DNA from: Candidatus Schekmanbacteria bacterium
GTDB taxonomy: Bacteria; SZUA-182
Assembly: GCA_016235675.1 (NCBI GenBank)
Contig: JACRJN010000187.1
Coordinates: 1-40,659 of the forward strand
DNA: 40,659 nt
Direction: 5' to 3'
The notes under the pieces: generated by a model
Told to the model about the DNA's origin: nothing
What the model saw: the letters and a program-made list of their open reading frames with translations, nothing else
Database searches by the model: none
Shown: positions 2,523 to 33,688 of the stretch, one piece after another
Position numbering within the stretch: the stretch's first letter is position 1
Layout: each line of letters begins with the position of its first letter
Translations under genes and position numbers: made by a program

Positions 2523-3407
2523 TTAACAAGACCTCACAATCTCGGTACCAATCCCTTCATCGGTAAAAATTTCCAGTAACAGCGCATGAGAAATACGCCC
2601 GTCGACGATGTGCGCCTTATTGACACCGGCGCGCAGGGCGTATAGACAGGATTGAATCTTGGGCAGCATTCCTCCGGCAATCGTTCCCTCCAGGATCATG
2701 GCCTGAATTCTTTCCTCGCTGATGCTGGATAAGATCTTTTCATCTTTATCATACACCCCGGCCACATCGGTAAGATAAACCAGCTTTTCCGCCCGCAGCG
2801 CTGCGGCCACCGCTCCGGCCACTTCGTCGCTGTTGATGTTGTAGGTGGTGCGATCATGACCCACCCCGACCGGGGCGATAACCGGGATAAACCGATCGCT
2901 GTCCAATAATTCCAAAACCCTGGTGTTGATATTAATCACCCGTCCTACCAATCCGATATCTATCCCTTTATTATTACCGGAGAAGGGATTTTCTCCCAGA
3001 TAGCGTTTTTCCGCCTGAATCAAATCGCCGTCTTTGCCGCTCAAGCCGATGGCCTTTCCTCCGTGATGATTGATCAGGCTGACCAGGTCTTTGTTGATTT
3101 GACCGGTAAGCACCATCTCCACAACTTCCATAGCCTCAGGAGAGGTGCAGCGCACACCGGAGGCGAATTGGATTTTGATCCCCAGACGGCGCATCAATTC
3201 ATCGATTTGAGGCCCCCCGCCGTGAACTACGATTGGATTTATTCCGATACACTTGAGTAAGACTAGATTGCGGGCGAAATCCTCCTTTAATTGCTCGCTG
3301 AGCATGGCGTTGCCGCCGTATTTGATGACGATGGTTTTACCGGAAAACTTGCGGATGTAAGGTAAAGCTTCCATTAGTACCTGGGCTTTTTCGATTAATG
3401 TTTCCAT
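2523..3407 (-). CDS. argB: Acetylglutamate kinase
   Basis: KTIVIKYGGNAM, VVHGGGPQIDELMRRLGI, EKLVYLTDVAGVYD, GGMLPKI motifs of the ArgB amino-acid kinase family. Confidence 0.95.
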   Translation of the reverse strand: METLIEKAQVLMEALPYIRKFSGKTIVIKYGGNAMLSEQLKEDFARNLVLLKCIGINPIVVHGGGPQIDELMRRLGIKIQFASGVRCTSPEAMEVVEMVLTGQINKDLVSLINHHGGKAIGLSGKDGDLIQAEKRYLGENPFSGNNKGIDIGLVGRVININTRVLELLDSDRFIPVIAPVGVGHDRTTYNINSDEVAGAVAAALRAEKLVYLTDVAGVYDKDEKILSSISEERIQAMILEGTIAGGMLPKIQSCLYALRAGVNKAHIVDGRISHALLLEIFTDEGIGTEIVRSC

Positions 3408-3551
3408 TTTTTCTCCCGGATTAAAAGGCTATAGAGCTATGCAGTAACTATTAATTACCACGAAGGACACGAAGAAGAAATATTGGGTAGCGTACTCGTA
3501 GTGCCAGGGCTTTAGCCCTGGAAATTCAGCCCTAAAGGGCTGGAACTACGA

Positions 3552-3746
3552 TTAAGCTTCTTTAAAGCATTCAATAAAACGCTTATAGGAGCGGTCATAT
3601 GTACGCTCTACTTCTTTTGGGAAAAAACAGGCCGGCAACTGCCGGGCTTGGCGATGATATGAGACACATTCACAGCATTTACCTTTCCGCTCGCAAGACG
3701 GATAACTGCAAGCGCATTTCTGTAAATTAGCTTCGTAACAGTCCAA
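3552..3746 (-). CDS. Small cysteine-rich protein (DUF6485-like); likely TTG start at 3746
   Basis: CACSYPSCERKGKCCECVSYHRQARQLPACFF motif; AGGAGGG lies just upstream of the TTG. The ATG at 3773 given in the track sits upstream of that RBS. Confidence 0.65.
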   Translation of the reverse strand: MDCYEANLQKCACSYPSCERKGKCCECVSYHRQARQLPACFFPKEVERTYDRSYKRFIECFKEA

Positions 3747-3778
3747 TTTATTCCCTCCTGTTTTATCACACAAAGTTT

Positions 3779-3881
3779 TGTAGGGTGGGCTGTGCCCACC
3801 ACATTTGATGGCCTGACATTATTTATGCCGGTCAAATATTAACCGATAATAGTTTAAAATGGTGGGCAAAGCCCACCCTGC
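3779..3881. repeat. Family B palindromic element (GTAGGGTGGGCTGTGCCCACC ... GGTGGGCAAAGCCCACCCT)
   Basis: Same ~100-bp core (GGCCTGACATTATTTATGCCGGTCAAATAT) occurs at 10116-10203 (inverted) and, diverged, at 25099-25206. Confidence 0.85.
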
Positions 3882-3912
3882 TATTGCTACTTTTTTCCGT
3901 CTTCACCCGTCA

Positions 3913-5160
3913 TCAAAACTCTGCCAAAAAAACAGCATTCCGGCCTTCTTTCTTGGCCTTATAAAGAGCCGTATCCGCCGCCTGAACTACGGTTTCCACG
4001 CTATTGCCGTGTAAGGGAAAAGCGGCTACGCCGATGCTGACCGTAATTTTACTTTTACCGGTAAAAACCGTCTGGACTTGATTGCGAATCCGCTCCGCCA
4101 GGCTAAGAACTCCCTCCAGGGCGATTTTTTTTCTGATTAGTTCCGCCTGCATAACCCCGTAAGAGGGAGAAGATTCCGGGAGGATAATAATAAACTCATC
4201 TCCGCCGTAACGAAAAGGTATGTCCACATTATAAACCGCTAAATTGCAGTCGGCGCGGATATTGTGTTTTAAGATACCGGCTACCCCTTGCAGGAGTTTA
4301 TCGCCTTCCAGATGGCCGAAAGTATCATTAAAGGCTTTAAACCCATCCAGATCGATCAATAACAGCGAAACCAGATGATTGAAGCGGTGCGCCCGCTCGA
4401 TTTCACTCTGCAAACTGTGAAAGAAATGTTTGCGATTATATAATCCGGTCAAATGATCGCGAATAACTTTCTCTTTTAAATTTTCCTGATTGCTTTTATG
4501 CAGCCGCATAAAATAGGTTCCCACCGAAGCGGTGCAAATCGTGATAAAAGCAATCCAGGAAAAAAATACCCAAACCAGATTTTCGCCGTAACCTTGTGCA
4601 TAATCATAAAAAGGCATCTTGACTTGCGGGATTATGCCTCTTGTTTCCAGAGAGAAAAGCCAACCTAAAGAGCAGATAGCAAACAGCGCTACCCCCCAGG
4701 TATCTTTAGCCTGGTCGAAAACCAAAGCCGATTCCAGCACGATCAGCGGACAGATAATCCAGACCCAGCTTATCACCCCTCCGGTATAATGGATCACAAA
4801 AATGACTAAAACAACGTCCAATAAAACATGTAGCTGCCGCAACCCACGCAAATGGGAAAGCCAATGATAGCTATATTGGTACCAGATATTGGATAAAACG
4901 GTGCCAAAAAAAATATAAAATAAGGGTAAGGCAAATTGCCGCACCGCGGTAAATAAATCGGATTTAAAACCAATTATGGAAGTCAGAACAAGTGCATAGG
5001 TTAAACATGTCCCGCTGAAAATCCACCTGGCCCTGATCATTTTTCCCAGATGCTGTTCAAAGCGGGATACCTGTTCGATTTCAGATGTGACCGGGTCGGC
5101 GGAGGTATAAAAACTAAGCGGTTTTATAAATCGATTGATTAAATTAACCAATTTATTCAT
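3913..5160 (-). CDS. Membrane-bound GGDEF diguanylate cyclase
   Basis: N-terminal multi-TM region, then DHLTGLYNRKHF and FRYGGDEFIIILPE; the residues at the I-site position are YNVD instead of RxxD. Confidence 0.9.
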   Translation of the reverse strand: MNKLVNLINRFIKPLSFYTSADPVTSEIEQVSRFEQHLGKMIRARWIFSGTCLTYALVLTSIIGFKSDLFTAVRQFALPLFYIFFGTVLSNIWYQYSYHWLSHLRGLRQLHVLLDVVLVIFVIHYTGGVISWVWIICPLIVLESALVFDQAKDTWGVALFAICSLGWLFSLETRGIIPQVKMPFYDYAQGYGENLVWVFFSWIAFITICTASVGTYFMRLHKSNQENLKEKVIRDHLTGLYNRKHFFHSLQSEIERAHRFNHLVSLLLIDLDGFKAFNDTFGHLEGDKLLQGVAGILKHNIRADCNLAVYNVDIPFRYGGDEFIIILPESSPSYGVMQAELIRKKIALEGVLSLAERIRNQVQTVFTGKSKITVSIGVAAFPLHGNSVETVVQAADTALYKAKKEGRNAVFLAEF

Positions 5161-6199
5161 TGGCTGAATCTTTTAATGGCTTCTTCAATATTTGTATCTC
5201 TTTTTCCAGCAATTTAATTTTTGCGTATAAATCCGGCAATTTTCTGGTTATCGCTTCTGTTTTGCGCCATTCCTGATGGGGGACTCCGATAAAACCCGCT
5301 AAAACAGTTCCCGGCGCGGTGTTTTTGGTTACCCCCGCTTTGGCCGCGACCTTGGTGTCATCAGCCAGTTCGATATGGCCGACTACCCCGACTTGCCCGC
5401 CTAAAACCACCCGTTTCCCCAATTTGGTACTCCCGGAAATGCCAGTTTGGGCGACGATAATAGAATTTTCGCCGATCACCACATTATGGGCGATTTGCAC
5501 CAGGTTGTCGATTTTAGTACACCGTCCGATACAAGTAGCTCCCAGGGCACCGCGGTCGATGGTGACGTTGGCGCCGATTTCCACCTCGTCTTCAATCTCC
5601 ACCGTCCCCACCTGGGGAATTTTTTGCTGCTTGCCCTGGGCGAAAACATAACCGAAACCGTCGCTTCCGATGACGGTTCCGCTGTGGATGATAACCTTGT
5701 TGCCAATACTGACTTTTTGGTAAATGCTTACATTGGCGTGGATGACGCAATTGTCGCCGATACGGCAGTCATTAGCGATAGATACGCCGGGATAGATATA
5801 AGTCCCGTCTCCGATGTAACTATTTTCTCCAATCGCCGTATGGGCGGCCAGATAGACGTTTTGCCCGATTTGGGCGCTTTGGGCGATTACCGCGGTAGGA
5901 TGAATCCCCGGAGCGGGCGGGCGATCAGGATAGATCAGGGTCATTACCAGAGCAAAGGCGGCGTAGGGATTATCGACTTGTAAAAGCGCAACCGGGGCTT
6001 GTTCGATTTGACGGGAGACTATTACGGCCGCGGCTTTGGTGCTTTCTAAGTATTGGGCGTATTTAGGATTAGAGATAAAAGTGATTGATCCGGTATCGGC
6101 GGATTCTATCGGCTTGACGGCTGTGATCATTGTTTGCGGGTCGCCGATTACGCGCCCGCCGGTGATTTGGGCTAATTGTTGCAAAGTATAATTTGGCAT
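5153..6199 (-). CDS. lpxD: UDP-3-O-acyl-glucosamine N-acyltransferase
   Basis: Left-handed beta-helix hexapeptides (GENSYIGDGTYIYPGVSI, IAHNVVIGENSIIVAQTGISGSTKLG); likely start MPNYTLQQLAQITGG at 6199. Confidence 0.93.
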   Translation of the reverse strand: MPNYTLQQLAQITGGRVIGDPQTMITAVKPIESADTGSITFISNPKYAQYLESTKAAAVIVSRQIEQAPVALLQVDNPYAAFALVMTLIYPDRPPAPGIHPTAVIAQSAQIGQNVYLAAHTAIGENSYIGDGTYIYPGVSIANDCRIGDNCVIHANVSIYQKVSIGNKVIIHSGTVIGSDGFGYVFAQGKQQKIPQVGTVEIEDEVEIGANVTIDRGALGATCIGRCTKIDNLVQIAHNVVIGENSIIVAQTGISGSTKLGKRVVLGGQVGVVGHIELADDTKVAAKAGVTKNTAPGTVLAGFIGVPHQEWRKTEAITRKLPDLYAKIKLLEKEIQILKKPLKDSANE

Positions 6200-12549: not shown

Positions 12550-15500
12550 TTATCCCTCCTGCTTTTTGGGGATGTAGATAACTGCCTGCCGGTTTGTTTC
12601 CGGTTGTTTGTTTGAATAAGCTTTATCGGCGCTGCCGGTTTCGCCCAAGAAATTCTGCACCAGCCACACCACCGGTCTTAAGCTCGCCCGCACGATCGTT
12701 TTCAGAAACGCGTTCTCTTTGATAAACCCGGCAATGGGCGGGCTTAACTGATAATAAAGAGCAACAAATTTCCGGCCAAACGCGTTAGTTAAAAGGTAAT
12801 CATTCCGGAAATGCCGCAAAATCCGGACTTCACTGGCCATGGGGGTGCCAAAGGCTGCGGTGGCGATAAAACAGCGGGAGTCGCCGCCAGAGCTTTCCGT
12901 ACCGGCATCCTCAACCGGTTCACCTACGGCAAACACAGAAAAACTGCTGGTCTGACCATAGATTATATTATTAGCAGTGTCTCTGACGGTAGTTATCTCA
13001 ACCCATTCGTCATTATCATAATGGTACAACCCCAAAGATTTCTCAGCATCCGCACTCAATCCGGTGTCATCATAGTAAAAACCGACATCGGCGGAATTAA
13101 ACGCAGCCGAGGTTTTAATCTCATAATATTTCCCGATTAATGTAAAACCTCCCAGAGCGGGGTCCGGTCCGGTTTCTGTAACGTTAACATTGGTATATCC
13201 GCTGGTGATGATATTGTCAAAGATTATGGATGTAACGGTAAGTTCCGCTGTCGCACCGGAGAAATACAGCGTCACAGCAGCCCCTGATTGCGTCCACTTG
13301 GTATCTGCCGAATCACAAACATCGCCCACCCCATCCCCGTCCAGATCCGATTGATCGGGATTGGAAACAGCGGGGCAATTATCACAGTTACCGAAGCCAT
13401 CTTCATCGGAATCATCGCCGGTAGCGGGATTGATAGCCGGATCAGTGTCGTCGCAGTCGGTTTTGTCAGTTACATAATCCGCAGGGGCGGAACAAGCCTG
13501 ATCAGATACATCAGGATTGCCGTAACCGTCGTGATCTGCATCCTGATAATAGGTGTTTTTTACACCGTCATCAACCTGTCCGTCGCAATCGTTGTCTATG
13601 TCATCGCAAACCTCAGGTGTCGGATTACCGGCGGTACAAGTATCGACCAGGACGCCGTTGGTACAGCTTTCCGTACCGGTACTGCTGCAAGCCCCTACTC
13701 CGCAGGTAGTGGTACGGGTCAGATTCTCATCGGTCTGCCCGTCACAATTATTATCTATTCCATCGCAAATCTCGGCGGATTGACTACCCTCGGTACAGGT
13801 ATCGCCGCCCCAGACCCCGGCGCTACAGGTTTCGGCTCCCGTTCTGGCACAGGCCCCGGTACCGCAGGCGGTTGCCTGGGTCAGATTTTCATCAATCTGT
13901 CCGTTGCAGTCATTGTCTTTGCCATCGCAAGCTTCTGCGGTGGGATTGCCCTGAACGCATGTTTGCGGCTGGCCGTTCACGCAATTGTCGACCGTCCGCT
14001 GGCATTCACCAGTACCGCAGGTGGTAGTGCCTAATTCTTCATCAGTCTGTCCGTCGCAGTTGTTGTCAATCCCATCGCAAATCTCAGCGCTGGGAGTACA
14101 CTCAGTAGTGATAAACGCGGCATATTTGCTTAAGTGGTTTACGTCAAAGGTAATCGTATAGTTGTTCCAGTTGATCTTGACGTTGGAGATACCGTCGGTG
14201 ACCCAGGTCTGGGAATTGACATTGAAATAGCGCACCTGAAAGGTGTTCTGGAATTCAGCTTGCGTCATGCCCGCCGGAAGTTCAAAACTCATGGTAACGG
14301 TCAGGGTCTTGTTTTCCGCCACCGTAACCCCTGCCTGATCGAAACTGAAATCATAAACCGCGCTGACCGATTTAGCGTTGGTGCCCGCAACAGCATCACC
14401 GGGGTCGCCATAACGCTCGATCTTCAAAGCTATAGCAGTAGTATCACCCGCACCGGCCAAAGCAAAGGGCGGCACATAGACGGCGGTGTCATCCTGAGTG
14501 CCCATCATGGTGGTTTCGCCGCCGGCGGCGTTGGTTACATTGGTGCTGGCGGTCTGCTGCAACTCGCTGCCTACCTCGAAGCTGAAGGTAGCCTCACCCG
14601 CTACAGTATTATGACTGCCCTGAATCTTAATCCGCACCAGGGTATCGCCGGGGTTGGCCGTATAATCGATCCCCCACTGTGTGGCCGAAACTTTATTCAG
14701 CGTACCCAAAGTGCCGTTGCCGGTTACTATATTGAAAACCGGATCACTGTCCAGAGATTCGTCGGCGTAAAAGGTCAAAGACAGCGTCGAGCCGCTTACC
14801 GAAGAGGATACGCTGAATTTGGGGGGAGAACCGGCCAGGGCAAAGTCAATCCCGCCTGGGTTGGGAGTCGTCCCGTTGATCGTAACGTCAGACGGATAAA
14901 CCAGCGTATCGTAACCGGCGGCATTTACCGCCACCTTATAAGTGCCGTAGATCAAATCGGTGATGCTGTAGGCTCCCCCTACCGTAACGGCGGTTTTATG
15001 CTTGCCGCTTGCGGTATTATAGGCTACCACCTTAGCTCCGTTGACATTCACCGCATTGGCGGTAACGACCCCGGAAACAGAGCCTACCTGAGAATTCAAC
15101 CCGACATTCAGGGTAGTGGTGGAGCCGCTGGTAATGGATGCGGTTTGAGTGTTGGTAGCATATCCCGCCGCGCTGACTTCTATAGTGTAACTGCCTGTTC
15201 CCAGACCGGGTATGGTGTATGCTCCGCCGGCGTCGGTAAAAGCAAAGCCGCCGGTTTCCACCACCTTAACCTTGGCGCCGGTTATTGCAGCGCCGCTGCC
15301 GCTTGCGCTGACCGTGCCGGAAAGCGCTCCCCCGGCGATAAAACTGATGTCCAGGGTGGTAGTCTGCCCTTCCGTAACACTCACATGCTGATATACCTGA
15401 GTGACAACACCCTGACTAATCGCCCGGATGGTATAAGTTCCGGCAGGTATTTGGGCAAAATTATAACTATCAGCAAACCGCGGCCAGACAAAGGCATCTA

Positions 15501-17826
15501 CCAAACCGGGACTGGCATCGGCTTCATTGAAGGCCATAATTGTAGTCCTGTTGGGATTCAGACTGCCGCCTGAGATACTGCCTTTTAATGTACCGTAATT
15601 GGTCTGGGCGGTGAAATTCTGCCCTGACAATACCGCCCCCGCTGTCAGCATTAAGCTGTGCCAGTCGTGCAGAATGATGTACTCTCCATCCTCCGTTCTC
15701 ATATAAGAGTACATGGAAATATCGGTTTTGCCTGCCGAGAGTACCAAATTGAAATTCCCGGCGGTTTCTGTCGCACTGATTTTAAAGTAATTCTCATAAC
15801 CGTCATCGGGGGTTCCAAAGCCGGTAATAAACTTATCTATGAACCAATAATCCGCATCGCTGGGGCTGATATTGCCCAAGAACGCGACAAATCCGACACT
15901 CGGATAACCGTAGTTGTCATACTGATTATCGGCCTCTCCAAAAGGCAAAAACACCCCATTTACATCCTTAGCCGCAATAGCGGTAAAATTGGTAATGCTG
16001 CCGGATACGGTAGCCGCGGAAGCCGTACCGCGCATAACCAGGTCGCTGTCAATCTGACTGCCCGCCGTAACCGCTACATCCGCCTTTACCCCATCGCTGA
16101 AGCCATCTTTCATTGCTCTTACGATATATGTACCCGGAGACAGATAATCCAGGGTAAACTGACCGAAGGCGTCCGTATAGACATCCTCTGACCAGACCTC
16201 ATCGCCGTTTAGATCCTGGCCGGAAACCTCCATTTCTGCCCCGACTATGGGTGTTCCGTTTTCATCGGTAACCTGGCCGGTAATCTTGCCGGCTTTAAGC
16301 AGGGTGATGGTCGGAGCCTCGGCAGTCGCGCCGGCGGTAACCGTCAACGGCCCCACAGATATTTCACTCCGGCCATATTTAATATCGCCGTAAATCTCCT
16401 CTATCGACCAATCAGCTACCACGGCAAAAACCTTATTGCTGGCTGGTACGCTGCCTATGGTGTAATAGCCGTCGGCATCAGTCCATGTATCTTCATGACC
16501 GATCGCACCGTTAATCCAAACCCGCGCCCTCATTTTCAGATGTTCTACCGGCTGACCGTCTTGGTTGACCACCCGCCCGTGAATCTTGCCCGCTGCGTTT
16601 AGCGCAAAATCCGGGCCGTGCACTTCATTAGAAGTCGCCTGATACAGCCCAGGGGCGATCTTGGCCTCGTAAAACGCCGGTTCGGCTGGCCGCCCATCAT
16701 TCACAATGTGCACGGTGATCCCGGTATTGCCGGCGCCGGGGTCAAACCTGAGATAGCCGCTCTCATCCTCCTGACCCGGATGTGAATTAATGGAGGCTGC
16801 CTGTCCATCCGGGGAATTGCCGTTAACGCCGCCCCAATCCTCCGTATCCCACCCACACTGCGACCACAAATAAGAACCATTTGAGCCTTGCACCGCATCC
16901 ACCTTGGCCAGGTAGCCGGGTTCGGCCAGGATTATATAATATGGGTAAGCGCCGGAGAAGGTTTTAGTGGCGGTACCGCTGCCTAATAAGGTGTAGCCGT
17001 AGTTCTCCGGGTGTAACCCATCCCGATCGCAGATAGCATTGTTTCCGCCATAAACCTTATAGGCAGTCCCCGGAGTTAAGGCTTCAACTACCTCGATGGG
17101 GTAAAATTTACCCGGCGAGGGCAGTAACCAGAGTTCGTACCTGCCGTTATCTGCCGGTTCTATCCGATCCTCATGCCAGTCATGGTTGTTTTCGGTGTAT
17201 GAAGCGCGGGCTACTACCTTGGCATATTGTACAGGAACACCGGCGGCATCTTTGACGTAGCCCCAGACCAGACCGGCCCGGCGCAGGGCCAGGTTGATAT
17301 TGGGCGTGTTAGCCCCATTAAATACCTGCACCTGAAATTGATCCGCCTCTACATAATGATTGCCCGCACTTTGCTGCCCTTCATAAATGCTTACACGATA
17401 GCGGCGTTCAGTCAAACCGTCAAACCGGTAGGAGCCGTCCGCTCCGGTAGTAGTATTAGCTACATATTCCCAGGATTCGTCGTCAGCCCAGTTGGGGTCC
17501 TCCCCTTGGTTAAGCTGGATTTGAATGTTTGCCAGGGGGGAGCCGTCAACGGGAGTACCGTTCGCATCCTCGGCATAGGCCCTCACCACCCCGGAAATAG
17601 AACCGCTGTCCCCGACAGACTTGGATAGTGACTTTGAAGCGATTGATTTGGCTACAGGCTTTGCCACAGCGGATTTAGGAACCTGCACCTCTTTGGCCGG
17701 GTTATGCCGGTTGGGAATGCGTGTTCCCCGATCAGCAAAAACCCCCGCCTGTACCGGAAAAGCCCCTAAAACAAAACACAGAAACATCAATACGGCTAAT
17801 ACCTTACTGCCTCTACTGCTTTGCAT
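12550..17826 (-). CDS. 1758-aa secreted protein: signal peptide, multiple carboxypeptidase-regulatory-like/CNA-B-like beta domains, four MopE-type CDGxDNxCDGxxDE repeats, thrombospondin type-3 Ca-binding segment, CFI-box C-terminus
   Basis: Repeated GxVTDENGTPIVGAxMEV units, ICDGIDNNCDGQTDE, DLDGDGVGDVCD, CFIATAAFGTPMASEVRILRHFRNDYLL; GGAGGGG RBS upstream of ATG. Confidence 0.9.
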   Translation of the reverse strand: MQSSRGSKVLAVLMFLCFVLGAFPVQAGVFADRGTRIPNRHNPAKEVQVPKSAVAKPVAKSIASKSLSKSVGDSGSISGVVRAYAEDANGTPVDGSPLANIQIQLNQGEDPNWADDESWEYVANTTTGADGSYRFDGLTERRYRVSIYEGQQSAGNHYVEADQFQVQVFNGANTPNINLALRRAGLVWGYVKDAAGVPVQYAKVVARASYTENNHDWHEDRIEPADNGRYELWLLPSPGKFYPIEVVEALTPGTAYKVYGGNNAICDRDGLHPENYGYTLLGSGTATKTFSGAYPYYIILAEPGYLAKVDAVQGSNGSYLWSQCGWDTEDWGGVNGNSPDGQAASINSHPGQEDESGYLRFDPGAGNTGITVHIVNDGRPAEPAFYEAKIAPGLYQATSNEVHGPDFALNAAGKIHGRVVNQDGQPVEHLKMRARVWINGAIGHEDTWTDADGYYTIGSVPASNKVFAVVADWSIEEIYGDIKYGRSEISVGPLTVTAGATAEAPTITLLKAGKITGQVTDENGTPIVGAEMEVSGQDLNGDEVWSEDVYTDAFGQFTLDYLSPGTYIVRAMKDGFSDGVKADVAVTAGSQIDSDLVMRGTASAATVSGSITNFTAIAAKDVNGVFLPFGEADNQYDNYGYPSVGFVAFLGNISPSDADYWFIDKFITGFGTPDDGYENYFKISATETAGNFNLVLSAGKTDISMYSYMRTEDGEYIILHDWHSLMLTAGAVLSGQNFTAQTNYGTLKGSISGGSLNPNRTTIMAFNEADASPGLVDAFVWPRFADSYNFAQIPAGTYTIRAISQGVVTQVYQHVSVTEGQTTTLDISFIAGGALSGTVSASGSGAAITGAKVKVVETGGFAFTDAGGAYTIPGLGTGSYTIEVSAAGYATNTQTASITSGSTTTLNVGLNSQVGSVSGVVTANAVNVNGAKVVAYNTASGKHKTAVTVGGAYSITDLIYGTYKVAVNAAGYDTLVYPSDVTINGTTPNPGGIDFALAGSPPKFSVSSSVSGSTLSLTFYADESLDSDPVFNIVTGNGTLGTLNKVSATQWGIDYTANPGDTLVRIKIQGSHNTVAGEATFSFEVGSELQQTASTNVTNAAGGETTMMGTQDDTAVYVPPFALAGAGDTTAIALKIERYGDPGDAVAGTNAKSVSAVYDFSFDQAGVTVAENKTLTVTMSFELPAGMTQAEFQNTFQVRYFNVNSQTWVTDGISNVKINWNNYTITFDVNHLSKYAAFITTECTPSAEICDGIDNNCDGQTDEELGTTTCGTGECQRTVDNCVNGQPQTCVQGNPTAEACDGKDNDCNGQIDENLTQATACGTGACARTGAETCSAGVWGGDTCTEGSQSAEICDGIDNNCDGQTDENLTRTTTCGVGACSSTGTESCTNGVLVDTCTAGNPTPEVCDDIDNDCDGQVDDGVKNTYYQDADHDGYGNPDVSDQACSAPADYVTDKTDCDDTDPAINPATGDDSDEDGFGNCDNCPAVSNPDQSDLDGDGVGDVCDSADTKWTQSGAAVTLYFSGATAELTVTSIIFDNIITSGYTNVNVTETGPDPALGGFTLIGKYYEIKTSAAFNSADVGFYYDDTGLSADAEKSLGLYHYDNDEWVEITTVRDTANNIIYGQTSSFSVFAVGEPVEDAGTESSGGDSRCFIATAAFGTPMASEVRILRHFRNDYLLTNAFGRKFVALYYQLSPPIAGFIKENAFLKTIVRASLRPVVWLVQNFLGETGSADKAYSNKQPETNRQAVIYIPKKQEG

Positions 17827-17871: not shown

Positions 17872-18816
17872 TCATTTAAACAATTCAGCCACTTTCGGCG
17901 ATTTCAAGGCATTCTCTACACTGAATTTAGGTATCCCGCTGGGAACTACGTAATACGCCAGGTCAATATCCTGCTGCCGGCGTTTCAGATTCAGATTAAT
18001 CGTCGGCGCCTTTCTGATTTGCTGATAAACTTCATAAGCGGCAGCCAAACTGTCTATAGTCTTGCCGTTGATCGCCGTGATGATATCTCCGTCTTCAATC
18101 CCCAATTCTTTAAACAACGCTCCTTGTTCGATCTCATTTACCATGAAACCCCTGTTTTGCCCGGTATCGGCACAGCGCTGAATACTGGCCTGGGTCAGGA
18201 ATTTAAAGATATTTTCCGTCTTCCCGATCAGATTATTGGGACGGATAAGCCATTCATTTTCATTAACCTGCTTATAGCCTTTTGATCTTAATTGCACCAC
18301 ATTCTCTAAATCGCCGGTCTCTTCCCCGATTTTTAATTGTTTTTGAAAACCGTCTTTTTGCAAAACAACCCCTTTCTCATCAATGCAGATTATCCGGACT
18401 CCGTAAGGGATTTCTGAATCTGTTGCATACGATTTATTGCGCCAAGTCAACAGGTCTTTTATGACGGCTTTATTCTTTTTATGATTGAGTCCCAAAACGG
18501 TTGTTCCGGTCAGTCTTAAATAGCCAAAGAAGACATTTATATGGGAATTTACCGGCAAAGCGGCGGGATTGACTGTCGATACCAAGTTGCGTTCAAAAAT
18601 GTAGTTACCTGATTTATCAGGTTCTTTCTGCCCAATGAATTGGGCAACTACAAAAGATGAACTACAGGCAGGTTGGTCGATAAGATTATTTACGTCGGCG
18701 GCTAAACTCAAATTATCATCAATTGATTGAAAATAATAACAATAAAGACTAAGTACAATTAGTATAAAAAATATTTTAGTCCCAATTAACTGGTGATTAA
18801 TTTGAACAGTGGGCAT
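17872..18816 (-). CDS. gspC: Type II secretion system protein GspC (PDZ-containing)
   Basis: N-terminal TM, conserved GspC HR domain, C-terminal PDZ (GALFKELGIEDGDIITAINGKTIDS). Confidence 0.85.
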   Translation of the reverse strand: MPTVQINHQLIGTKIFFILIVLSLYCYYFQSIDDNLSLAADVNNLIDQPACSSSFVVAQFIGQKEPDKSGNYIFERNLVSTVNPAALPVNSHINVFFGYLRLTGTTVLGLNHKKNKAVIKDLLTWRNKSYATDSEIPYGVRIICIDEKGVVLQKDGFQKQLKIGEETGDLENVVQLRSKGYKQVNENEWLIRPNNLIGKTENIFKFLTQASIQRCADTGQNRGFMVNEIEQGALFKELGIEDGDIITAINGKTIDSLAAAYEVYQQIRKAPTINLNLKRRQQDIDLAYYVVPSGIPKFSVENALKSPKVAELFK

Positions 18817-18926: not shown

Positions 18927-18955
18927 ATTATATAGTAACATGAGTGCGGTGTCAA
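18927..18955 (-). promoter_or_regulatory. Perfect-consensus sigma70 promoter TTGACA-17-TATAAT upstream of gspC
   Basis: Minus strand: TTGACA, CCGCACTCATGTTACTA, TATAAT. Confidence 0.8.
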
Positions 18956-18988: not shown

Positions 18989-20749
18989 TTATTTTCTGTC
19001 CGCGGTTTTCTCGTTTGGCTTGTGTCCGAAATATTGCTTGACCAAATTGTCCAGATAACCGTCCGGGTTTTCCACCCCTTCTGCGGTGATGGTAAAATCC
19101 TGTTTGCCGGTATTGTTCTTGATCAAGGTCAGTCCGTGTTCGTAGTTGAGCATCACCTGATGACAGATATCGGGAATGGACTTTTGCTCCTCCCAATCCC
19201 GCTGAATAATCAAATCCCGCGCCTGTTGATCGAATCTGATTTTCAACCCGCTTTGTTTGTAGAAGCCCTCTTCCTGCTTATCTATTTCCTGATAAAGTTG
19301 TATCAATTCCCGACAGACGGTTTTTACGCTATAACCCGATTCGCGCACCTTTCCCACAATTCGATTTTCAATGGCGGGATCGAACTGCGCTACCCCGGTT
19401 TGTTTTACAAATTCCTGAATTTCTGAAATCAGGGCGTTATTTTCTTGTGCTATCATGCCTTGGTACAACATTAATTGTTTAGGAGAGGAGGGATCGGTCA
19501 AAAGATTAGCCAGTTCCTGTTCCGGATGCTGTACCATCTCTTTGGTAACCACCAAACGTTGTATTGGGGTGGAAGGCAGTTTCTTTTCGAACTTGAGCAG
19601 GACGCGCTCGACCGCGCTTACCAGCCCGCGGGCGCCGGTTTTTTCCTGATAGGCTTTCTGCGCGATGCCGTGCAGGGCTTCGTCTTCAAATTTAAGGTCG
19701 ATTCCATAAGCCTTGAAATCCAGTTTCTTGCCTTGGATGACGGAACAATTGGGGGCGTTTAAAATCTGATATAAGTCATCGACTTCCAGGCTATCCAAAA
19801 CCGCCCAGACCGGCAGGCGTCCCACAAATTCCGATTCAAAACCATAGGCAATCAAATCCTCAGACTTGACCTCATGTAGATGATCGCCGTCTTTGGCGCT
19901 GACGCTTTCCGATTTGAAGCCGATATTTTGGGTCTGCAAGCGTTTGTTGATAATAGTGTTTAAGCTGTTGAAAGCCCCGCTGACAATAAAGAGTATATTC
20001 TTGGTGTTGATCTTTTTGCGCTCAATCTTGCCGGTTTTCTGAAAGCGCATGGCGGCTTCCAACTGGGAGGCCAAGTCATGGGGGATTTTTAAATCTACCT
20101 CGGTTTCTTCCATCAACTTCAATAAATTACGCTGCACACCGGTACGGGACACATCCGGCCCGATGACCGTATTCCCGGCCGCGATTTTATCGATTTCATC
20201 CAGGTAGATTATCCCGTACTGGGCTAGTTCGATGTTGCCGTCGGCCTCATGCACAAGGTCGCGTACCAATTGCTCCACATCCCCGCCGACATAGCCGGTT
20301 TCGCTGTACTTGGTAGCGTCGCCCTTGACGAAGGGCACCCCGATTTTGTCGGCAATCAGCTTGATGAGGAAGGTTTTACCGACGCCGGTGGGACCGATAA
20401 GAATGATGTTGTTCTTGATGTTGCCCAGCGGCCCGGCCTTTTCCCCAAGTTTGATGCGCTGAAAATGGGTGCAGATTTTGGTGGCCAAAATCTCCTTAGC
20501 CTGCTGCTGTTTGATGACATATTTATCCAGATAGGCTTCCAATTCCTCCGGCAGCATATCGAATTTGATTTCCACCTTCTTTTGGGTGGCGGCTTCTTCC
20601 TCTTCCTCCAGGTTATCTTCTTTGGGAACCGGAAATACGGAGCCGACGCGCACGCTGTCCCCGTATTTCCTGGAGAGGAATTCATTGAAATCGTGCTCCA
20701 GTTCGCTGGGGGAGGGGAATTTGGTGGTTTTATTTTTATCTTTATCCAT
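18989..20749 (-). CDS. ClpX-like AAA+ unfoldase lacking the N-terminal zinc-binding domain, with a C-terminal extension
   Basis: GPTGVGKTFLIKLIAD, GIIYLDEIDKIA, LQTQNIGFKSES (IGF loop), EFVGRLPVWAVLDSL, KTGARGLVSAVER; no CxxC zinc finger at the N-terminus; start MDKDKNKT at 20749. Confidence 0.9.
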   Translation of the reverse strand: MDKDKNKTTKFPSPSELEHDFNEFLSRKYGDSVRVGSVFPVPKEDNLEEEEEAATQKKVEIKFDMLPEELEAYLDKYVIKQQQAKEILATKICTHFQRIKLGEKAGPLGNIKNNIILIGPTGVGKTFLIKLIADKIGVPFVKGDATKYSETGYVGGDVEQLVRDLVHEADGNIELAQYGIIYLDEIDKIAAGNTVIGPDVSRTGVQRNLLKLMEETEVDLKIPHDLASQLEAAMRFQKTGKIERKKINTKNILFIVSGAFNSLNTIINKRLQTQNIGFKSESVSAKDGDHLHEVKSEDLIAYGFESEFVGRLPVWAVLDSLEVDDLYQILNAPNCSVIQGKKLDFKAYGIDLKFEDEALHGIAQKAYQEKTGARGLVSAVERVLLKFEKKLPSTPIQRLVVTKEMVQHPEQELANLLTDPSSPKQLMLYQGMIAQENNALISEIQEFVKQTGVAQFDPAIENRIVGKVRESGYSVKTVCRELIQLYQEIDKQEEGFYKQSGLKIRFDQQARDLIIQRDWEEQKSIPDICHQVMLNYEHGLTLIKNNTGKQDFTITAEGVENPDGYLDNLVKQYFGHKPNEKTADRK

Positions 20750-20945
20750 TATCGTTGTTTTCCTTGCTGTAAAGCCTCTGTTTTTGTTGAAATCGCTCCC
20801 AGGCCCGGCGTTTTTTAGCCGGGACGAAGTTATTGACAAATTCGTTAGCGTCTTTCAGCCACTCTAATTTTTTACGGGCGGAAAGATGGCTGAAATAAAT
20901 TAAATCCTCCAGGCTGGGGGTATGGGTAAAGGGTTTATTTTTCAT
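20742..20945 (-). CDS. 67-aa conserved-looking small protein, overlaps the ClpX-like gene by 8 bp
   Basis: MKNKPFTHTPSLEDLIYFSHLSARKKLEWLKDANEFVNNF...; ATGGATAA overlap. Confidence 0.65.
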   Translation of the reverse strand: MKNKPFTHTPSLEDLIYFSHLSARKKLEWLKDANEFVNNFVPAKKRRAWERFQQKQRLYSKENNDNG

Positions 20946-20950
20946 CTGCT

Positions 20951-21021
20951 GGGCTTTGGGCTTTGGGCAAAAAATGTCTTTTACGCTTGTCTAAAGCCCA
21001 GAGCCTATAGCCTAAAGCCTA
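20951..21021. repeat. Inverted pair of 7-bp repeats (GGGCTTT... / GCCTATA GCCTAAA...)
   Basis: GGGCTTT GGGCTTT GGGCAAA, then GCCCAGA GCCTATA GCCTAAA GCCTA; same style as 33567-33688. Confidence 0.7.
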
Positions 21022-21497
21022 TTTATAATTTGTTCCAATGCCGCAATGTCGGCTAAATCCTGAGGACGGCCTGCGAAACGTTTCATTTGAATTAGATCCG
21101 CCGCCGATACGATAGGAATGTTGATCCCTTTAGCCGTGAATGTTTTTTTGTGCTTTGCGCTTGGGGAAAAATCCAATGGCGTATTCAATAAAACATTGAC
21201 AATTTGATAACCGTTGGTATTAACGAAGGAAAAGGCCGAAAGATTTTTTTCCAGAACCCATTTTTGTCTGGTTTGGGAGTCTAAAAAATCGTTTATGGCA
21301 ACAGGCAATTTAGGTTTATAATCCAATGCCTGCATAACTTCTACAAATTTAATCAAATTCGCCGTTTCCATGTCAAGAAGTAAATCAAGATCGGCGGTAA
21401 GTCTCAAAACCCCATGCAATACTAAGGCAACGCCTCCGGCTACCAGGTATTTTATTCGTCGATGGGATAATTCGCGGAAGATTTCTTCATAGTACAT
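21012..21497 (-). CDS. MNT/AbiEii-like nucleotidyltransferase (DUF6036-like)
   Basis: YLVAGGVALVLHGVLRLTADLDLLLD (GG-x-ALxxHG...TxDxDL), AADLIQMKRFAGRPQDLADIAAL. Confidence 0.85.
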   Translation of the reverse strand: MYYEEIFRELSHRRIKYLVAGGVALVLHGVLRLTADLDLLLDMETANLIKFVEVMQALDYKPKLPVAINDFLDSQTRQKWVLEKNLSAFSFVNTNGYQIVNVLLNTPLDFSPSAKHKKTFTAKGINIPIVSAADLIQMKRFAGRPQDLADIAALEQIINRL

Positions 21498-21498
21498 A

Positions 21499-21813
21499 TT
21501 ATAAATTTCGAGAACTCTTAGTTTTATTAATTTTTAATTTTGAAAATTTACGTTTAGTATGAATTAAGGCCAGGATTTCAATTCTATCGGAAAATATTTC
21601 ATAAATAAGACGATACGAATAAATAATAATTTCCCTTATATTAGAATTTGTTATTTCCGGTACAATTCGTCCAATTTTTGGGAAAATATTTAATTTTTCT
21701 GACTTTTCTACAATTTCTTGCGCAACTTTCTTTGCATAAAGGCTGGAATCTCTCGCGATGTAATCATGAATTGCCTTCAAATCCTCACGAGCGATGGATG
21801 TCCACCTTACCAT
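21499..21813 (-). CDS. RelE/ParE-family toxin
   Basis: WTSIAREDLKAIHDYIARDSSLYAKKVAQEIVEKSEKLNIFPKIGRIVPEITNSNIREIIIYSYRLIYEI. Confidence 0.88.
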   Translation of the reverse strand: MVRWTSIAREDLKAIHDYIARDSSLYAKKVAQEIVEKSEKLNIFPKIGRIVPEITNSNIREIIIYSYRLIYEIFSDRIEILALIHTKRKFSKLKINKTKSSRNL

Positions 21814-21986
21814 GTCTGAATTTCCTTTTTCAATTCTTCACTGGATATCGATTTGCCGTATTTAACCGCTTCCCGACCTTTATTGACTTTATCGAGAACA
21901 TAAAGTTCATACATCATATCATCGATATCGGCGGTTTCGGGCAATTGTGCGATTATTTTGATAGCTTCTTTTTTTAAAGTTTCCAT
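21807..21986 (-). CDS. Antitoxin of the ParE-like toxin
   Basis: 59 aa, KKEAIKIIAQLPETADIDDMMYELYVLDKVNKGREAV...; overlaps the toxin start by 7 bp. The track start at 22082 lies inside a repeat. Confidence 0.8.
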   Translation of the reverse strand: METLKKEAIKIIAQLPETADIDDMMYELYVLDKVNKGREAVKYGKSISSEELKKEIQTW

Positions 21987-22004
21987 GATAGTTTTCCCTA
22001 TGTT

Positions 22005-22168
22005 AACCTGAGTTCGGGATAATTTCATAAGATTGTGGGCAACAAAACTTGTAGGGGCGGGGTTTCCCCGCCCTTGGTACAATTGTGCGCAAATGGCGCA
22101 TTTCCACCAGGGCGAGGAAACCCCGCCCCTACAATAGATTGCCTTGATACCTTATCCCGAACTCAGGT
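22005..22168. mobile_element. MITE-like element, TIR (A)ACCTGAGTTCGGGATAA, containing a family A palindrome (GTAGGGGCGGGGTTTCCCCGCCC)
   Basis: Left AACCTGAGTTCGGGATAA and right TTATCCCGAACTCAGGTT; imperfect flanking repeat TATGTTA/TATGTCA; same TIR as 6435-6656. Confidence 0.85.
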
Positions 22169-22704
22169 TATGTCATGTTATGATAACTAAGAATATTACT
22201 CAGCTCTTTGCGCTGTTTAGTTTCCACCGTCAAGGGGGTGAGCGGATAGCCGACAGCCAGCAGAGTCACTATTTCAAATTCTTCCGGTAATTTGAGAAGT
22301 TTTTTTGCCTGATTGAGGTTGAACGAAGCGACCCAGCAAGTGCCCAAACCCTCGGCGGTAGCGGCGGTAATAAATTCCGTTACCGCGATGGAGACATCCA
22401 CCCAGGCATAATTTTCCCCGTCTTCCTTGCGTACCCAAGCCTCATCAGGTACGGCGCAGGCGACAATTATTATCGGTGCGCTGTGAAAGCCGTCCTTGGT
22501 TAAAACCTCCTGATCGAATTTTTCCCGTCCCTTTTTGGGTAACACGATAAAATGCCAGGGCTGACGGTTAGCCGCACTGGGACTGCTGCGCAGGACTTCC
22601 CAAAGGCGCGCCAGCTTTTCCTCTTCGATCGCTTTGCCTGAAAACTGCCTGATGCTTTTGCGTCGTTTCAGGATGTCGTAAAATGCTTGCAGTCCGGCTT
22701 CCAT
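22168..22704 (-). CDS. Nitroreductase-family protein
   Basis: ILKRRKSIRQFSGKAIEEEKLARLWEVLRSSPSAANRQPWHFIVL, GLGTCWVASFN. Confidence 0.92.
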   Translation of the reverse strand: MEAGLQAFYDILKRRKSIRQFSGKAIEEEKLARLWEVLRSSPSAANRQPWHFIVLPKKGREKFDQEVLTKDGFHSAPIIIVACAVPDEAWVRKEDGENYAWVDVSIAVTEFITAATAEGLGTCWVASFNLNQAKKLLKLPEEFEIVTLLAVGYPLTPLTVETKQRKELSNILSYHNMT

Positions 22705-27690: not shown

Positions 27691-27824
27691 AGCCTGTAGA
27701 GCGGGGGTTTATCCCCCGCTTCCGGTGCAAGGTTCCTGCATCTGCATGTTGGGGATGAACCCCAATGCTACGTTGGGGTTTCTTCGCCGGGTTTATTTTA
27801 TTCCGAAAATAGGTGTTCCCATTT

Positions 27825-27900
27825 GTAGGGGCGAGGTCTCCTCGCCCTTGGTACAATTGGTGGAAACGGTACCAAAAGGGCGGGGAAACCCCGTCCCTAC
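27825..27900. repeat. Family A palindromic element (GTAGGGGCGAGGTCTCCTCGCCC ... GGGCGGGGAAACCCCGTCCCTAC)
   Basis: Same family as inside 22005-22168 and 32541-32743. Confidence 0.8.
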
Positions 27901-27967
27901 AATAAATTTTCATATTTTGTGGCGCCCCGAAGGGGCATGACCGTTTCGTATAAAAATGGAGTTTTAA

Positions 27968-33560: not shown

Positions 33561-33566
33561 GGTACA

Positions 33567-33688
33567 GGCTTCAGGCTATAGGCTTCGGGCTTCAGGTTAA
33601 AAAACATTCGCTGTTTCGGTGTGAAGATATACCAAAACATCAAAAATTGTATTTGTTTTAGCCCAAAGCCCAAAGCCTATAGCCAATT
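33567..33688. repeat. Inverted heptamer arrays (GGCTTCA GGCTATA GGCTTCG GGCTTCA / GCCCAAA GCCCAAA GCCTATA)
   Basis: Tandem 7-bp units at 33567-33594 and 33661-33688 in opposite orientation. Confidence 0.75.

Follow-up and report, generated by a model that had tools for sequence, protein, structure and literature searches.

Five minus-strand genes lie close together in the window (the whole stretch of DNA analysed, 40,659 nucleotides, which is an entire contig of a 2.98-Mb assembly that is 89.65% complete), and the locus raises the question of whether a ClpX-like AAA+ unfoldase has been joined to toxin–antitoxin (TA)-type genes as a single system or has come to lie beside them by chance. The arrangement given in a preliminary description was recovered in full when the coordinates were re-derived: the antitoxin and toxin frames overlap by 7 bp, the nucleotidyltransferase begins 1 bp past the toxin stop, and the frames of a 67-aa protein (p67) and the AAA+ protein share 8 bp (ATGGATAA). 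The genes and associated elements are as follows.

21807–21986, minus strand: antitoxin of a ParE/RelE-type pair, 59 aa, with homologs upstream of toxins elsewhere; no Pfam family
21499–21813, minus strand: ParE/RelE-family toxin, 104 aa (Pfam ParE_toxin, NCBIfam RelE_StbE)
21012–21497, minus strand: MenT/AbiEii/DUF6036-like nucleotidyltransferase, 161 aa, probable toxin of a second pair
20742–20945, minus strand: p67, 67 aa, helical; probably the antitoxin to the nucleotidyltransferase
18989–20749, minus strand: ClpX-paralog AAA+ unfoldase without the zinc-binding domain, 586 aa
19028–19258, minus strand: second, degenerate AAA+ small domain within the C-terminal extension of the paralog (hhalign, profile)
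20946–21011, no strand: dispersed repeat between the nucleotidyltransferase and p67 (genome self-matches)
22004–22170, no strand: MITE-like repeat upstream of the antitoxin (inverted repeats, genome self-matches)

Pfam and NCBIfam identify the toxin as ParE/RelE, the nucleotidyltransferase as DUF6036-type, and the AAA+ protein as ClpX-like, and return nothing convincing for p67 or the antitoxin. The array consists of three separable modules (21499–21986, 20742–21497, and 18989–20749) and is not one system. Very probably it is a chance juxtaposition, in which two mobile TA-type cassettes of known type lie beside an old, widely conserved ClpX paralog.

The first module is the most familiar. Its toxin scores 64.1 bits against Pfam ParE_toxin (cut-off 23) and 32.2 bits against NCBIfam RelE_StbE (cut-off 27.9), and 28 of 193 genomes contain a homologous toxin. 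An antitoxin homolog lies directly upstream of the homologous toxin in 24 of 29 other loci (E<1e-3), which together with the above-cut-off Pfam call bears out the proposal that the two genes are a pair; none of these 29 loci adjoins the nucleotidyltransferase. Judged by sequence, this is an ordinary mobile type II pair, whose antitoxin would be expected from its family to bind and silence the toxin. It shares with ParDE and RelBE systems the ParE/RelE-fold toxin and an overlapping upstream antitoxin gene conserved with it, and shows no notable difference from them beyond an antitoxin that falls in no Pfam family.

The nucleotidyltransferase had been labeled MNT-like; Pfam, PDB profile, and fold matches place it instead with MenT/AbiEii/DUF6036-like enzymes. 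In a profile search of the PDB its best match is MenT1 (8AN4, E 4.7e-10, covering most of the length), and the AlphaFold2 model (pLDDT 95) likewise finds MenT1 first (8AN5/8AN4, E about 1e-6, TM 0.68–0.70). Residues T34, D36, K139, and D150 are invariant among 29 family members and align with T39, D41, K137, and D152, the catalytic residues of MenT1 (PMC10435456). Residue 101 (window 21195–21197) is aspartate in 27 of the 29 members, glutamate in one, and asparagine in the window copy alone; the window enzyme may therefore be weakly active or inactive. A minimal MNT with a HEPN partner was considered and ruled out, p67 having no HEPN match in Pfam; the same domain search recognised a true MNT-HEPN pair at once in another genome (G005). 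Counting the window copy, the source genome has three nucleotidyltransferases of this family; those outside the window include one at C115:6626–7060.

The enzyme is paired with p67. Among 386 genomes searched, relatives of p67 lie directly after a homologous nucleotidyltransferase at six of six loci; starting from the nucleotidyltransferase, a p67-like ORF is found directly downstream in 25 of 29 loci outside the window (the 6 loci found through p67 plus 19 of 23 further loci, 17 of these at E<0.01). This linkage, with MenT1 as the best match, sustains the suggestion that the two genes form a second TA-like pair, whose function would follow that of its relatives. The two frames overlap in most other loci and stand 66 bp apart in the window. 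The AlphaFold2 model of p67 has three helices (pLDDT 84); p67 has no Pfam family, no match in the PDB by sequence profile or by fold (MenA1 and AbiEi included), and no match in plasmids and viral contigs.

By analogy with MenA1, p67 is likely the antitoxin of the nucleotidyltransferase, and the pair most likely works like MenT1–MenA1 (PDB 8AN4, 8AN5). MenT1 is blocked by MenA1, a helical protein of 68 aa that also induces auto-phosphorylation of the enzyme (PMC10435456, PMC11375011). Both systems are two-gene modules with a DUF1814-type nucleotidyltransferase carrying T-x-D and K...D catalytic residues and a helical partner of nearly the same length (67 and 68 aa). They differ in gene order, p67 following the toxin gene whereas menA1 precedes menT1; in the lack of any detectable sequence or fold match between p67 and MenA1; and in the enzyme itself, which is shorter in the window (161 residues versus 196 in the 8AN4 chain). 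In operation, the nucleotidyltransferase would stop growth by adding nucleotides to the ends of tRNA or to another RNA, and the small helical p67 would bind and block it.

That the pair is not a TA module at all, and is instead an enzyme that modifies small molecules or RNA, with p67 as its helper, strikes us as rather unlikely. Such a reading would fit the resemblance of the fold to the antibiotic nucleotidyltransferases LnuA and ANT(2''), the asparagine at position 101, and the missing match between p67 and MenA1, but MenT1 is the best match by both sequence and fold, and the residues equivalent to its catalytic four are invariant. The genes also occur as two-gene cassettes across many genera, sometimes beside other TA pairs, and a scattered distribution of this kind is typical of TA modules. 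A useful by-product of the search is a widespread pairing of a MenT1-like nucleotidyltransferase with a small protein for which there is no Pfam family model.

The third module had been described as a ClpX variant that keeps a ClpP-docking loop, lacks the zinc-binding domain, and has an extra C-terminus. Its motifs were confirmed (Walker A and B, GYVG pore loop, Arg finger, GARG sensor 2, and NIGF loop), as were the missing domain and long C-terminus, and the loop suggests that the protein can dock ClpP. The start at 20749 agrees with the N-termini of relatives (KFPSPxExExDFNEFLSxKYG). Scores against the NCBIfam ClpX equivalog models fall below the cut-offs (319.3 bits versus 359; 301.4 versus 370.75), and four relatives are likewise under the cut-off. 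A branch with SH-aLRT 100 sets the 41 rows of the paralog clade apart from 26 rows of canonical ClpX in a phylogenetic tree. All 26 canonical sequences have the C4 zinc-binding domain, which is found in none of the paralog-clade members with an N-terminus. An (I/V/L/M)GF loop is present in all 47 clade rows and in 18 of 19 further loci, the remaining one being a partial frame.

The C-terminal extension contains a second AAA+ small domain, because hhalign aligns it with the family's own small domain at E 1.1e-11 and 29% identity, against E about 0.3–0.4 for control regions, and because the profile of the second copy also detects the first in several relatives. The second copy has no sensor-2 GAR motif. 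Compared with canonical ClpX of E. coli and B. subtilis, the protein shares the AAA+ core, GYVG pore loop, Arg finger, sensor 2, and IGF loop; it differs in the pore-loop context (SETGYVGGD versus TEAGYVGED), in lacking the zinc-binding domain and the canonical RKH loop, in not adjoining clpP, in its C-terminal second small domain, and in belonging to a separate clade.

The closest described analogue is ClpX3 of Myxococcus xanthus (MXAN_2743). It has neither the N-terminal domain nor the RKH motif, it is isolated from clpP, and its deletion impairs growth at high temperature (PMC11423568); the likeness is one of description, and the part of that report considered here makes no mention of a C-terminal extension. 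A literature search on ClpX paralogs and DUF6036 returned this paper alone as relevant. Shorter ClpX-like frames (356–388 aa) in some of the searched genomes may be of the M. xanthus ClpX3 type.

Relatives of the AAA+ protein occur in genomes of the same class, in distant genomes, and at 40 loci of a second collection, with phyla that include KSB1, Calditrichota, Spirochaetota, Zixibacteria, Cloacimonadota, Gemmatimonadota, Myxococcota, and Thermodesulfobacteriota; the second small-domain profile matches in 29 of 386 genomes. The protein is a paralog and not a replacement, because all eight class relatives carry canonical clpP and clpX elsewhere as an adjacent pair, and it co-occurs with orthodox ClpX in most genomes examined. 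No orthodox ClpX or ClpP was found in the source genome, where the paralog could be the only ClpX. A real absence of orthodox ClpXP was considered; an assembly gap is more likely, because clpP and clpX are adjacent in eight of eight class relatives and are missing together from an assembly that is 89.65% complete.

The paralog is most likely a hexameric unfoldase that would use its IGF loop to dock on the ordinary ClpP of the cell, picking substrates without a zinc-binding domain and carrying the second small domain. Judging from the loop, it is likely an alternative ClpP partner with a different choice of substrates. The chances seem about even that it represents a second, widespread ClpX lineage not described before, one that works with the same ClpP as orthodox ClpX and feeds it a different substrate set. 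With its duplicated small domain and strictly conserved docking loop, such a lineage offers a way into how two unfoldases share one ClpP. The novelty at this locus is confined to this ClpX variant and, less markedly, to p67, which has no family model.

The preliminary description had further proposed that a dedicated unfoldase is joined to the toxin modules. This does not stand, as the AAA+ gene is conserved in relatives without TA genes nearby, the very finding that the preliminary description had named as grounds for rejecting its proposal. Profile searches of 714 kb around these relatives found no p67, nucleotidyltransferase, toxin, or antitoxin, and comparison of their surroundings with the window genes revealed no relative of the four TA-type genes. 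Conversely, none of the nucleotidyltransferase and toxin loci contains the AAA+ gene, and no second genome with the same linkage was found. Searches with PADLOC defence models gave nothing beyond weak hits to generic AAA+ models and two antitoxin hits at chance level; rejecting a TA–unfoldase system prevents a false "defence operon" entry.

The surroundings of the array point the same way. The supposed operon is not seamless, because a dispersed genomic repeat fills the 66 bp that separate the nucleotidyltransferase from p67. The repeat (20946–21020) has about 70 matches in its own genome and recurs near 33566–33684; it is rich in GGCTTTAGG/CCCAAAGCCC. Upstream of the antitoxin lies the 167-bp MITE-like element (22004–22170), whose 19-bp terminal inverted repeats are perfect and which also contains a nested GC-rich palindrome. 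The genome contains about 77 matches to it, the best of the other copies at 92%, and a further partial copy lies at 27823–27908. In the nearest syntenic genome (G007) the AAA+ gene again has a nitroreductase homolog upstream, as in the window, and the interval between them (L036 2427–3634) holds other gene pairs (PBECR3-like with DUF2283, and DUF7718 with DUF5647). The G007 nitroreductase beside the ClpX paralog is frame-broken. In G003 and G005 the AAA+ gene has other neighbors, and in G005 a nucleotidyltransferase–p67 pair sits between V/A-type ATPase genes beside the MNT-HEPN pair. That G005 locus (L088, contig C141, about 3000–5650) is itself an array of RelB-like, nucleotidyltransferase–p67, and MNT-HEPN cassettes.

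The mobile repeats, together with small genes that vary, identify this as an insertion region, and the context looks like cassette insertion into a chromosomal interval. Both gene pairs would have come to lie between the nitroreductase gene and a pre-existing chromosomal gene for the ClpX paralog, which would have no dedicated role in toxin control. The nitroreductase was also considered as an obligate partner of the AAA+ protein and rejected; it recurs only in some KSB1/Calditrichota (downstream) and in G007 (upstream).

Against this background a true five-gene system is very unlikely. In such a system the ClpX-like unfoldase, alone or with ClpP, would respond to a signal by unfolding one of the antitoxins, so freeing a toxin; the common strand, tight spacing, 8-bp overlap of the p67 and AAA+ genes, and retained IGF loop would all suit it, and antitoxins are known to be degraded by ClpXP-type proteases. 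It is opposed by the mutual absence of AAA+ relatives and the four TA-type genes from each other's neighborhoods, by the dispersed repeat that splits the array, and by the variable syntenic interval. The same 8-bp overlap, seen in one genome, is what might suggest p67 as an adaptor or substrate of the ClpX paralog in place of a nucleotidyltransferase partner; with p67 relatives following the nucleotidyltransferase and never the AAA+ gene, and no AAA+ relative having a p67-like gene, we consider this extremely unlikely.

Chance juxtaposition, the preferred reading, leaves room for local effects on expression. Co-transcription is likely here because of the 8-bp p67/AAA+ overlap and the common strand, and in view of this some regulatory coupling of the AAA+ gene with the TA-type genes is possible in the source genome. 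A scan for terminator-like and promoter sequences between the modules gave counts at chance level inside the array.

Just after the AAA+ stop, at 18927–18955 on the minus strand, is a sigma-70 promoter matching the consensus at 12 of 12 positions (TTGACA-17-TATAAT). It precedes a GspC/PDZ-like gene (17872–18816) and suggests that this gene is transcribed separately. Adjoining the GspC-like gene is a gene for a 1758-aa secreted-looking repeat protein (12550–17826, minus strand) with a CFI-box-CTERM domain near its C-terminus.
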